Origin: Candidatus Methylomirabilis lanthanidiphila
GTDB lineage: Bacteria; Methylomirabilota; Methylomirabilia; Methylomirabilales; Methylomirabilaceae
Direction of reading: 5' to 3'
Assembly (NCBI GenBank): GCA_902196205.1
Contig: CABIKM010000005.1
Location: 1 to 64,000 of the forward strand
Length of the DNA: 64,000 nucleotides
Shown here in pieces: positions 24,636-47,854 of the stretch. Under the pieces are notes generated by a model, which did no database searches, had not been told where the DNA came from, and worked only from the letters and a program-made list of their open reading frames with translations. Every line of letters starts with the position of its first letter. The first letter of the stretch is position 1. The translations under genes were made by a program, and so were the position numbers.

Positions 24636-24712
24636 AGTTTCGAGTTTCTAGTTTTGAGTTCTGAGTTACGAAACTAAAAACTAAAAACTAGAAACTAAAA
24701 ACTCAAAACTTG
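24636..24712. repeat. Low-complexity inverted repeat (AAACTAGAAACT type)
   Basis: The nuoD-nuoH spacer is made of TTTCTAGTTTTGAG-like units followed by their complements (ACTAAAAACTAGAAACT...), forming a long imperfect hairpin. The same letter pattern recurs at 35735-35771, 39653-39690 and 43170-43199. Confidence 0.7.
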
Positions 24713-26570: not shown

Positions 26571-26673
26571 TTCAACGTTCAAGGTTCAACGTTCCACCCC
26601 GTCTATATTTTTGAAACCTTGAACCTCGAACCTCGAACCTTGAACGTTGCACGTTGAACCTTGAACCTTGAAC
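26571..26673. repeat. GTTCAACGTTCAAGG-type intergenic repeat
   Basis: The nuoK-nuoL spacer consists of repeats of GTTCAACGTTC and the complement GAACCTTGAAC, giving a self-complementary segment of about 100 bases. The same units recur at 32072-32165 and 39119-39140. Confidence 0.75.
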
Positions 26674-32071: not shown

Positions 32072-32165
32072 CACCGTTCAACGTTCAAGGTTTCGAACTC
32101 TGAATCCGGAACCTGGAACGCGAAGCCCAACCTTGAACGTTGAACATTGAACCTTGAACGTAGTT
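32072..32165. repeat. GTTCAACGTTCAAGG-type intergenic repeat, second copy
   Basis: It has the same AACCTTGAACGTTGAAC units as at 26571-26673, downstream of nuoN and directly upstream of the atp promoter. Confidence 0.7.
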
Positions 32166-41600: not shown

Positions 41601-43208
41601 ATGAGTCTGACAGGCGGTCCGATCCTCTCAATACTGATTGCCATTCCGCTGTGTGGCGTCCTCTTACTCGTCTGTGTCGATGGGACGCGCGAGGCGCTGA
41701 TCAAGCGGCTCGCGCTGGCCATTTCATCCCTGGATTTTTTCCTGTCCCTGATGGTGTATGCGCAATTCGATCCGGCTACGGCCGGGATGCAGTTCGTCGA
41801 GCGGGCGCCGTGGATCGAGTCGATCGGGAGCAGCTATCTTCTTGGCGTGGATGGAATCAGCCTCCCGCTGCTGCTGCTTACGACGTTTCTGACACCCATT
41901 GCGATCCTTGCCTCCTTTTCCGGGATCACCAACCGGGTGAAGGCGTACATGGTCTGTATGCTGCTGCTCCAGGCCGGCATGATCGGCGTGTTTGTGGCCC
42001 TGGATCTGGTACTCTTTTACCTCTTCTGGGAGGGGATGCTGATCCCGATGTATTTCCTGATCGGGATCTGGGGCGGCCGGCGGCGGGTCTATGCCACCTT
42101 GAAGTTTGTCCTCTATACGATGGCGGGAAGCGTCCTGATGCTGCTGGCGATGATCGTCGTTGCCTTTCTGCATCAGGAGAGCATGGGTCGGTTGACATTT
42201 GACCTCACGGAGTTGATCGGCCGGCCGATTCCGTATGGCACGCAACTGTGGCTCTTTGCCGCCTTTGCCCTCGCCTTTGCCATCAAGGTGCCGATGTTTC
42301 CGTTTCACACATGGTTGCCGGATGCCCACGTGGAGGCGCCGACGGCGGGAAGCGTCCTGTTGGCCGGGGTGCTCTTGAAGATGGGGACGTACGGGTTCCT
42401 CCGATTCGCGCTGCCGCTCTTTCCGGAAGCGGCTGTCGCCTTTACCCCGTTGATCTCTGTGCTGGCCGTCATCGGTATCCTGTACGGCGCGCTGGTCGCC
42501 ATGGTGCAGGATGACCTCAAGCGACTGGTCGCGTATAGTTCAGTGAGTCACCTGGGATTCGTGATGCTTGGGATCTTTGCGATGAACCTGCAGGCCGTGG
42601 AGGGCTCCATCCTCCAAATGGTCAATCATGGCCTCTCCACCGGCGCCCTTTTCCTGCTGGTGGGGATGATCTATGAGCGGCGCCACACGAGGATGATAGA
42701 GGAGTTCGGCGGACTCTCGCGGGCGCTTCCTCGCTTCGGTCTCTGCTTTCTGGTGGTGATGATGTCGTCCATCGGCCTGCCGGGCCTGAACGGGTTTGTC
42801 GGAGAGTTCCTGATCCTGGCGGGAACCTTCCGTGTCCACAAAGGGTATGCGGCGCTGGCGGCCATCGGCATCATCCTGGCGGCGGTCTATATGCTCTGGA
42901 TGTGGCAACGCGTGATGTGGGGGCAAAGCCGACGGGCAGATAATCTCACGCTCAAGGATATCGGCGGCCGTGAGATGGCGATGCTGATCCCGATCATCCT
43001 GCTTATTGTGTGGATCGGCCTGAATCCCAATCCCCTCCTCAGGAAGATGGATGCGTCCGTCGCTCAGCTCATCGAACAGGTCGCCGGTTCACCACAAGCT
43101 GATCGGCTGTTGCCGCTTCGCGGTTCCAGGTTCCAGGTTCCACGGTCTGAAATTGCACATCCTATCTTTAACCCGAAACCCCAAACCCGAAACTCTAGAC
43201 CGATGTGA
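41601..43208 (+). CDS. nuoM2: NADH-quinone oxidoreductase subunit M (cluster 2)
   Basis: The 535-residue pump subunit has FYLFWEGMLIPMYFLIGIWGG, LPDAHVEAPTAGSVLLAGVLLKMGTYG and KRLVAYSSVSHLGFVMLG. The last 30 residues are encoded by repeat-like DNA (GGTTCCAGGTTCCAGG and CCCGAAACCCC) and are probably an unconserved tail acquired by reading into an intergenic repeat. nuoN2 starts 3 bases after the stop. Confidence 0.94.
   Translation: MSLTGGPILSILIAIPLCGVLLLVCVDGTREALIKRLALAISSLDFFLSLMVYAQFDPATAGMQFVERAPWIESIGSSYLLGVDGISLPLLLLTTFLTPIAILASFSGITNRVKAYMVCMLLLQAGMIGVFVALDLVLFYLFWEGMLIPMYFLIGIWGGRRRVYATLKFVLYTMAGSVLMLLAMIVVAFLHQESMGRLTFDLTELIGRPIPYGTQLWLFAAFALAFAIKVPMFPFHTWLPDAHVEAPTAGSVLLAGVLLKMGTYGFLRFALPLFPEAAVAFTPLISVLAVIGILYGALVAMVQDDLKRLVAYSSVSHLGFVMLGIFAMNLQAVEGSILQMVNHGLSTGALFLLVGMIYERRHTRMIEEFGGLSRALPRFGLCFLVVMMSSIGLPGLNGFVGEFLILAGTFRVHKGYAALAAIGIILAAVYMLWMWQRVMWGQSRRADNLTLKDIGGREMAMLIPIILLIVWIGLNPNPLLRKMDASVAQLIEQVAGSPQADRLLPLRGSRFQVPRSEIAHPIFNPKPQTRNSRPM
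43122..43200. repeat. Repeat units inside the nuoM2 tail
   Basis: GGTTCCAGGTTCCAGG followed by AACCCGAAACCCCAAACCCG resembles the low-complexity intergenic repeats of the other nuo spacers, but here it is within the coding frame just before the stop. Confidence 0.6.
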
Positions 43209-45340: not shown

Positions 45341-45844
45341 CTACGGCTTTCCTTTCTGACTGAGGAGGGCGTCAATCGATTTGTGAAACTCCTCCTCGGT
45401 CATTGCCCCCCTCGACCGTCCATAGAGGCTTCCGTCTGGATTGATCAGGAAGGTGGTCGGCGTACCTTCGATTTGATAGCGTCTGCCGATCTCGCCGTCG
45501 GTATCGCGTCCCACAGGGTAAGGGAGCTTATACGTCTCGATAAACCTGCGCGCGTCGGCTTCGTTGTCCCAGGCGACGTTGACGCCCAGCATCACGAGGC
45601 CCTTGCCATTGTACTGCTGGTAGATCTTTGCCAGAACGGGAGCCTCCCGTTGACAATGGGGTCATTTGGAGTGAAAGAAGTTGATCAGCACCGGCTTGCC
45701 GCGAAAATCCTTCAGCGCGATCGACTTGCCGTCCAGCAGCGGCATCGTAAAGTCCGGGACAGGCGCCGCGTGGGCCGCCTGCGCAACCAGCAGTGTGCCG
45801 ACCAACAAAGCTGTGAACATCGCTTTTCGCATGGGATTGCTCAT
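45341..45844 (-). CDS. TlpA/ResA-like thiol-disulfide oxidoreductase with in-frame UGA (candidate selenoprotein)
   Basis: Read through one UGA, this is a 167-residue exported thioredoxin-fold protein: signal peptide (MSNPMRKAMFTALLVG...AHA), then PVPDFTMPLLDGKSIALKDFRGKPVLINFFHSK, UGA, PHCQREAPVLAKIYQQYNGKG, VMLGVNVAWD and GTPTTFLINPDG. The UGA (complement of 45662-45664) falls exactly on the first cysteine of the CPHC redox motif; frame and homology continue unbroken on both sides. Seventeen bases after it is a 7 bp hairpin (45635-45651) with a GGC loop, in the position of a bacterial SECIS. GGAGG precedes the ATG at 45844. The alternative is a nonsense-mutated pseudogene. Confidence 0.75.
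45635..45656 (-). promoter_or_regulatory. Candidate bacterial SECIS hairpin
   Basis: In the sense of the gene, AACGGGA-GGC-TCCCGTT forms a perfect 7 bp stem with a G at the loop start, beginning 10 bases after the UGA and with its loop 17 bases after it. An outer TTG/CAA pairing across an internal loop extends it to 45628-45656. Bacterial SECIS elements sit about here, with an apical G. Confidence 0.55.
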
Positions 45845-45873
45845 CTCTGATACCTCCAATGTCAGTGGGGTCT

Positions 45874-45961
45874 ATAGAGTCAATCGAGTCTGTTGGGTCT
45901 ATTGGGTCATTGAGTCCGTTGAGTCAACTCAATAGACTCAATACACTCGAAGGACTCAATT
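45874..45961. repeat. GAGTCAATCGAGTC-type intergenic repeat
   Basis: Units of GGGTCTATTGGGTC and ACTCAATAGACTCAAT make an imperfect inverted repeat in the spacer between the TlpA-like gene and ubiD. It is a different family from the nuo spacer repeats but of the same low-complexity style. Confidence 0.65.
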
Positions 45962-45973
45962 AACGGTTGTTCC

Positions 45974-47419
45974 TCAATCCAGACCATACTCTTGCCAGCG
46001 TCGGTCTACGGCAGCCTTGGTCTCATGATCCATGACCTGTTCATCCGGCCAGTCGCGCATGAACCCCTCCTCTTTCCACTTTCGCGTTCCGTCGATCCCC
46101 ATCTTTGAGCCATACTTGGGCAGCCGACTGGCATGATCCAGGGTTTCGACCGGGCCCATGACAAATTCGATATCGCGCTCCGGGTCGATGTGGTTGAGGA
46201 CCTTCCAGACCACTTCCGCCGGGTTGCGGACGTTCACGTCCTTGTCGACGACGACGATCACCTTCGAGAACATCGCCTGGCCCATGCCCCAGATCGCGTG
46301 CATGATCTTACGCGCGTGGCCCGGGTACGCCTTGTCGATGCTGACGATAACAAGATTGTGAAAGACCCCGGCAAACGGCATGTGGAAGTCCACGATCTCC
46401 GGCAACTGTTTTCTGAGGAGGGGGAGGGACATCCGCTCCACGGCCGTCCCCATGTGGCAGTCCTCCATGGGCGGGCGGCCGACGATAGTGGTTTGGTAGA
46501 TCGGGTCCCGGCGGTGGGTGATGGCCGTCAGATGAAAGACGGGGTAATAGTCGGGGAGGGAGTAAAAGCCGGTATGATCGCCGAACGGCCCTTCCAGGCG
46601 CAACTCATCCGGTTCGACATACCCTTCCAGCACGATTTCGGCGTTGGCCGGGACCTCCAGATCAACGGTCTCGCACGGGACGAGTTCGACTGACCGTTTT
46701 CGCAGGAAGCCGGCGATCAGCATCTCGTCGATCCCGTCGGGCGCCGGGATGACTGCCGACAGGGTCGTAGCCGGATCGGGCCCAATGGCCACGGCGACCT
46801 CGGTGCGGCGCCCAAGCCGTCGGTTTTTTTCGTAGTGTCTCGCGCCGCCGTGGTGGATGTGCCAGTGCATCCCCGCGGTCCGTTCATCGTAGATCTGCAT
46901 CCGATACATACCGCAGTTGCGCGTGCCGGTGTCCGGATCTTTGGTGAAGACCAGGGGAAACGTGATGAACCGGCCGCCGTCCAGCGGCCAGCACTTGATG
47001 ACCGGCAACAGGTCAAACGAGGGCTCTTGCGTGATGCGCACCTCCTTACACGGGCCGTCCTTCACCCGTTTGGGCAGGTAGCTCGCCATCTCCGTCAGCT
47101 TCGGCAACATTTTGAGTTTCTCGAGCCACCCTTCCGGACTCTTGATCTCGAGAATGCCGTCCAGCTCCCCGGCCAGTTCGTCCAGCGAGGCGCGCTGCAG
47201 CGCCAGGCACAGATGCGCCTCCGAGCCGAAGGCGTTGATCAGGAGCGGCATGGGCGAGCCCTTGACCCGCTCGAACAGCAGCGCCGGTCCAAGACGCTTG
47301 CTGACCCGATCAGTGATCTCGGTGACCTCGAGAATCGGATCGACCTCGGTCTTAATCCGCCTCAGCAGCCCCCGCTGCTCCAGCGCCGCAATAAACGCCC
47401 GCAGATCCTCGTATGCCAT
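45974..47419 (-). CDS. ubiD: UbiD-family (de)carboxylase
   Basis: The 481-residue protein matches UbiD, a prenylated-FMN-dependent decarboxylase; in quinone synthesis it removes the carboxyl of polyprenyl-hydroxybenzoate. Family segments visible are DLLPVIKCWPLDGGRFITFPLVFTKDPDTGTRN, the metal/prFMN-binding HHGGARHY, and the E-x6-R region with EGPFGDHTGFY. The length fits the family. ATG 47419 is preferred to a GTG one codon earlier. UbiX, which makes the cofactor, is not in the window. Confidence 0.93.
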   Translation of the reverse strand: MAYEDLRAFIAALEQRGLLRRIKTEVDPILEVTEITDRVSKRLGPALLFERVKGSPMPLLINAFGSEAHLCLALQRASLDELAGELDGILEIKSPEGWLEKLKMLPKLTEMASYLPKRVKDGPCKEVRITQEPSFDLLPVIKCWPLDGGRFITFPLVFTKDPDTGTRNCGMYRMQIYDERTAGMHWHIHHGGARHYEKNRRLGRRTEVAVAIGPDPATTLSAVIPAPDGIDEMLIAGFLRKRSVELVPCETVDLEVPANAEIVLEGYVEPDELRLEGPFGDHTGFYSLPDYYPVFHLTAITHRRDPIYQTTIVGRPPMEDCHMGTAVERMSLPLLRKQLPEIVDFHMPFAGVFHNLVIVSIDKAYPGHARKIMHAIWGMGQAMFSKVIVVVDKDVNVRNPAEVVWKVLNHIDPERDIEFVMGPVETLDHASRLPKYGSKMGIDGTRKWKEEGFMRDWPDEQVMDHETKAAVDRRWQEYGLD

Positions 47420-47422
47420 CAC

Positions 47423-47854
47423 AACTCCAGCTATTAGCTATCAGCGTTCAGCTTTCAGCTAGAATCCGGAAAGAATTAGGCCCTAAATGCCCACAGAAAG
47501 ACGGCTGAGACAGCTCTGGCTGACCGCTGAGAGCTGACGGCTGATCGCTGTCCTATTGAACGCTGCCACTATAGCGGAGGGGGGTGAGGTCGGCAAGCAA
47601 AAATGGGTCAACCGAGACCAGTCAAAACGCATGGTCTTTGGTCCCTGCGCTGCGACGCGATCAGTGCGGGCGGAGAGTATGTCTTGGCCGTCGCCCGCAG
47701 CGCCTCTTGTTGACACAGGAGCCCAGCCCATGTGGATCGATACGTCACCCGGAAGGGTACACCGCCTTTCTGCTATTTTCATACCTTTTGAATCGGGGTG
47801 GGTTCATTCCCCGCGGAGTGACAAACGTCATTTGACAGGTTACACTTGAAATAG
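47423..47854. other. Intergenic region, no gene recognised
   Basis: It holds an inverted low-complexity repeat (AGCTATCAGCGTTCAGCTTTCAGCT, 47431-47460, with its complement-like GCTGAGAGCTGACGGCTGATCGC at 47524-47548), then about 300 bases with no convincing coding frame. A TTGACA at 47832-47837 precedes the higA-like gene but has no well-spaced -10 box. Confidence 0.5.

Follow-up and report, generated by a model that had tools for sequence, protein, structure and literature searches.

Prokaryotic selenoproteins combining a thioredoxin-type domain with a UxxC motif are already catalogued: a 2026 inventory lists Prx-like thiol:disulfide oxidoreductases (PF00578, UxxC), alongside thiol-disulfide isomerase-like proteins (cd02966) and a redoxin family protein, both likewise with UxxC, as well as TlpA proteins of the UGC type (PMC13188914). 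The thiol-disulfide isomerase-like form is known from marine metagenomes of the Sargasso Sea, where four sequences were found (PMC1088965). Moreover, 63 selenoproteins have been predicted in one genome of the Methylomirabilota (Deng et al. 2026, as cited in PMC13188914). The titles and abstracts that join Methylomirabilis or NC10 with selenoproteins apparently hold no description of the gene considered here. Since UxxC selenoproteins of the PF00578/TlpA type are catalogued, and a Sec-rich Methylomirabilota genome is on record, the gene adds to a known type. The sequence-only reading from which this work departs had proposed a new selenoprotein; this holds for the member, which is new, and for its lineage-specific subfamily, but not for the kind, as the UxxC AhpC-TSA/TlpA type is already present in the inventory (PMC13188914, Table 1).

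The gene is located at 45341-45844 of the window, i.e. the entire 64,000-nucleotide stretch of Candidatus Methylomirabilis lanthanidiphila DNA that was analyzed, and these previously given boundaries are correct, although the strand, which is minus, had been left unstated. As read from the sequence, the frame opens with ATG (45844-45842) and closes with TAG (45343-45341), yielding 167 residues when UGA is read as Sec, and the proposed Shine-Dalgarno sequence, GGAGG, is indeed found 8 nt upstream of the ATG (45853-45857, minus strand). The only internal in-frame stop of this thioredoxin gene is the TGA of codon 61 (45664-45662, minus strand), which falls at the first Cys position of the CxxC motif, exactly where it had been noticed, and which is predicted to encode selenocysteine as the first redox residue (UPHC). 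With TGA translated as U, the product starts with MSNPMRKAMFTALLVGTLLVAQAAHA, continues with the thioredoxin domain including FFHSKUPHCQREAP, and ends at the TAG. Residues 1-26 (45767-45844, minus strand) form a predicted N-terminal signal peptide, judged from the sequence and from a hydrophobic helix of residues 5-21 in the structural model, with putative cleavage between AHA and AP. A heuristic scan of the window for further UGA-containing genes returned nothing convincing, with a mask that also hid the true gene.

Upstream and codirectional lies a UbiD-type decarboxylase gene (45974-47422, minus strand), the function of which was assigned by eye. Inspected members of the genus have it next to the Sec gene, as at L017, L022, L024 and L028; as this neighbor is kept in several members of the genus and not in other families, it offers no clear functional clue. 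The interval between the two genes is occupied by a tandem array with a period of approximately 9 bp (45861-45960, GAGTC-containing), which becomes its own inverted copy near 45925 and whose unit pair gives 6 matches versus 0.18 expected. The window also contains arrays of 7-bp units at 24671-24710, 26615-26673, 32129-32159, 43122-43142, 43170-43193 and 47428-47461, with the units AAACTAA, AACCTTG, GGTTCCA, AACCCGA and CAGCTAT.

The best Pfam match of the window protein is AhpC-TSA (PF00578; 96.5 bits, cut-off 26), with Redoxin also matched. Among NCBIfam families the best match is ResA, at 107.5 bits and hence under the 170-bit cut-off of that family, and the genome holds no match to ResB; the protein was thus not assigned as the ResA of cytochrome c maturation System II, and the absence of ResB means that a role in that system is not supported. 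An AlphaFold2 model (pLDDT 87.8) most closely matches Bacillus ResA, with a TM score of about 0.93 (by target), an rmsd of 1.2 Å and approximately 32% identity.

The genome, assembled into 90 contigs totaling 3,048,664 bases, encodes a complete Sec machinery, on which the sequence-only reading depended: selA (603.6 bits), selB (377 bits) and selD (405.6 bits) are all present, as is a tRNA-Sec with anticodon tca (UCA), recovered in an RF01852 search. Furthermore, selD has an in-frame TGA of its own, placed in a canonical GUACK motif, which separately points to UGA being decoded as Sec in this genome. Across the genomes bearing the TGA-plus-hairpin signature described below, selB over threshold is missing in four that are 63-93% complete (G020, G021, G024 and G032), and in G024 a selB fragment is located at a contig end.

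From this genome and its relatives 30 homologue loci were fetched, the window locus included, one of which encodes Cys and 29 of which carry TGA. In all 29 Sec-type homologues, which stem from 28 genomes, not counting that of the Cys locus, and share about 41-99% identity with the window protein, the TGA occupies the same alignment column, and it aligns with the catalytic Cys of homologues, a feature by which bacterial selenoproteins are recognized. Close relatives thus retain TGA, with neither TGT nor TGC at the site and no further disabling change. A 28-base signature that links the TGA to the second Cys and the downstream hairpin gave 37 matches in 29 of the 35 genomes of the order, while the remaining 60 genomes of the class gave none, and neither did a reversed-pattern control. 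Scanning of the wider genome contigs with Cys-based patterns, which favor Cys homologues, returned just two UGA loci, both already known, and could have missed UGA relatives outside the phylum.

Downstream of the UGA, a bacterial SECIS-like hairpin is found at 45635-45651 (minus strand), with 45651-45645 paired to 45641-45635. The 7-bp stem with a GGC loop from 17 nt after the UGA, as originally described, is real and correctly positioned, and its geometry agrees with the published bSECIS rules (PMC13188914) in stem length, loop and distance. The predicted energy is -13.3 kcal/mol, a value that is not significant for the single sequence (z = -1.17), and so the case is carried by comparative evidence. 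Among 33 distinct sequences, standard pairing occurs in 97.8% of the pair cells, as opposed to 40-54% for slid controls, and four stem pairs display changes on both sides. The covariation score of 0.252 is above those of all slid controls and exceeds the 0.113 obtained on shuffling, with none of 500 shuffles scoring as high, although such tests overstate the significance because the sequences are related. Of the two lines of support suggested for the hairpin at the outset, covariation was recovered, but the folding energy of the single sequence was not significant.

Seen in one genome only, a single TGA interrupting a CxxC thioredoxin of normal type would resemble a nonsense mutation, as in a pseudogene, or a sequencing error. 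The same TGA is however shared by the 28 genomes, distributed over four families, and its conservation in independent genomes rules out such an origin. The conserved hairpin and the selection pattern also speak against it: among the genus orthologues, dN/dS has a median of 0.084 upstream of the UGA and of 0.143 downstream of it, indicating purifying selection on both sides and that the downstream part is evidently translated and selected. We thus assign a negligible probability to this explanation. We consider it equally far-fetched that translation stops at the UGA, giving a short product, and that an internal GTG (45595) starts a separate C-terminal protein of 84 residues, even if the open frame from this GTG was listed by ORF calling, as the thioredoxin fold would then be split and the strongly constrained PHCQREAP codons between UGA and GTG lost. 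Reading of the UGA as Trp or Cys, via a changed code or natural suppression, would also fit a conserved frame that is open through the UGA. Yet of 40 long open frames within the window, 20 close with TGA, which is the commonest stop among them and so is not generally reassigned; every part of the Sec machinery is encoded, tRNA-Sec (UCA) among them, and the hairpin follows the UGA rather than the protein family, which together leave this reading very improbable.

The hairpin could also be a mere by-product of codon preference over QREAP, lacking SECIS action, considering that the QRE[AS]P residues are themselves conserved, which limits variation. This would scarcely explain that at least six of the seven stem pairs form in all 35 Sec sequences as compared to only 2 of 85 Cys homologues, nor the compensatory changes among the Sec sequences. 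Synonymous variation is zero in 29 sequences at codons +5 to +8 (Arg, Glu, Ala/Ser, Pro), whereas other sites average 0.45, and these codons lie in the five-codon stretch with the least such variation in the gene; we regard a by-product as very improbable. Aggregated, the machinery, the conserved TGA, the covarying hairpin, its near-absence from Cys homologues and the purifying selection make decoding as Sec very likely, and the initial proposal that the UGA represents Sec and not a nonsense codon is supported by the complete machinery and the TGA of the relatives, with decoding itself predicted from sequence.

In a tree of 135 sequences, the window gene belongs to a clade (support 100/97) that unites 34 Sec sequences with a single Cys sequence and spans four families of the order. 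The Cys member, L135 (G028:C155), is a paralogue inside the Sec clade with a broken hairpin, and it likely represents a Sec-to-Cys reversal accompanied by hairpin loss, although its genome (G028) shows 7% contamination. Changes from Sec to Cys are rare, and are documented mainly in FdhA and SelD (PMC13188914). Separate UGA-bearing TlpA-like lineages also occur in the class, namely L143, L142, L145 and L146 together, and L147 and L148, with downstream hairpins of their own; in L143, L145, L146, L147 and L148 the in-frame TGA stands at the first redox Cys. A further paralogue flagged with TGA, in G000:C44, was rejected, as it is a Cys protein in which the TGA is an ordinary terminal stop. As a separate observation, a related thioredoxin (L129, G000:C44:3496-3912) and its genus orthologues L137-L141 harbor an unusual, genus-conserved CxxxC motif, CFPAC/CYPAC.

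With high confidence, we predict that the gene encodes an exported thiol-disulfide oxidoreductase of the ResA/TlpA type with Sec as the attacking residue, the UGA being decoded via SelB and the hairpin. Selenocysteine would be supplied by SelA and SelD, as suggested by the genes present, and tRNA-Sec (UCA), delivered by SelB, would decode the UGA at codon 61, with SelB recognizing the hairpin directly downstream. The protein is probably exported to act as a thiol-disulfide oxidoreductase in the periplasm. For the catalytic direction and substrate we infer that the U61 selenolate would attack a substrate disulfide, or a related oxidized thiol, and that C64 would then resolve the selenenyl-sulfide. 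CcdA-type proteins are the usual reductants of ResA/TlpA thiol-disulfide oxidoreductases, and a CcdA-type protein is present in the genome (DsbD_TM); it may serve as partner and re-reduce the U61/C64 pair. In a more far-reaching and doubtful scenario, the protein would represent a Methylomirabilales-specific family of exported Sec thioredoxins, ancestral to at least four families of the order. Its redox function in the periplasm, such as reduction of apocytochrome c or copper-site thiols, would be linked to the oxygen-forming nitrite/methane metabolism, and Sec would confer resistance to over-oxidation.

In practical terms, routine gene calling in Methylomirabilis genomes would break this gene in two or cut it short. 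Read with Sec at this codon, the gene shows that throughout the order NC10 methane oxidizers keep a thiol redox protein that depends on selenium and is probably periplasmic, which suggests that selenium may matter in their growth media.

Among described proteins, Bacillus ResA (PDB 1st9 and 3c71) shares the fold of the window protein, but its first redox residue is Cys. The best structural match, 3c71, is an engineered CPHC variant of ResA, while the Sec protein naturally possesses the PH dipeptide (UPHC). Prx-like thiol:disulfide oxidoreductase selenoproteins (PF00578, UxxC; PMC13188914, Table 1) have the same Pfam domain and the same Sec position, and the window protein, with its PF00578 domain and UPHC motif, combines the two features that define these Prx-like/TlpA-like selenoproteins, a likeness (representative WP_010940744.1) that rests on the listed domain and motif. 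The thiol-disulfide isomerase-like selenoprotein (cd02966, UxxC; PMC1088965), likened here by its description, shares the TlpA-like thioredoxin fold and the UxxC motif. The WAxxUGC ResA-like selenoproteins of NF041054 and the UGC-containing TlpA disulfide reductases are likewise ResA/TlpA-like with Sec in the redox motif, but the window protein scores 43.8 bits against the NF041054 cut-off of 300 and thus falls outside that family, with the UxxC motif UPHC in place of UGC.
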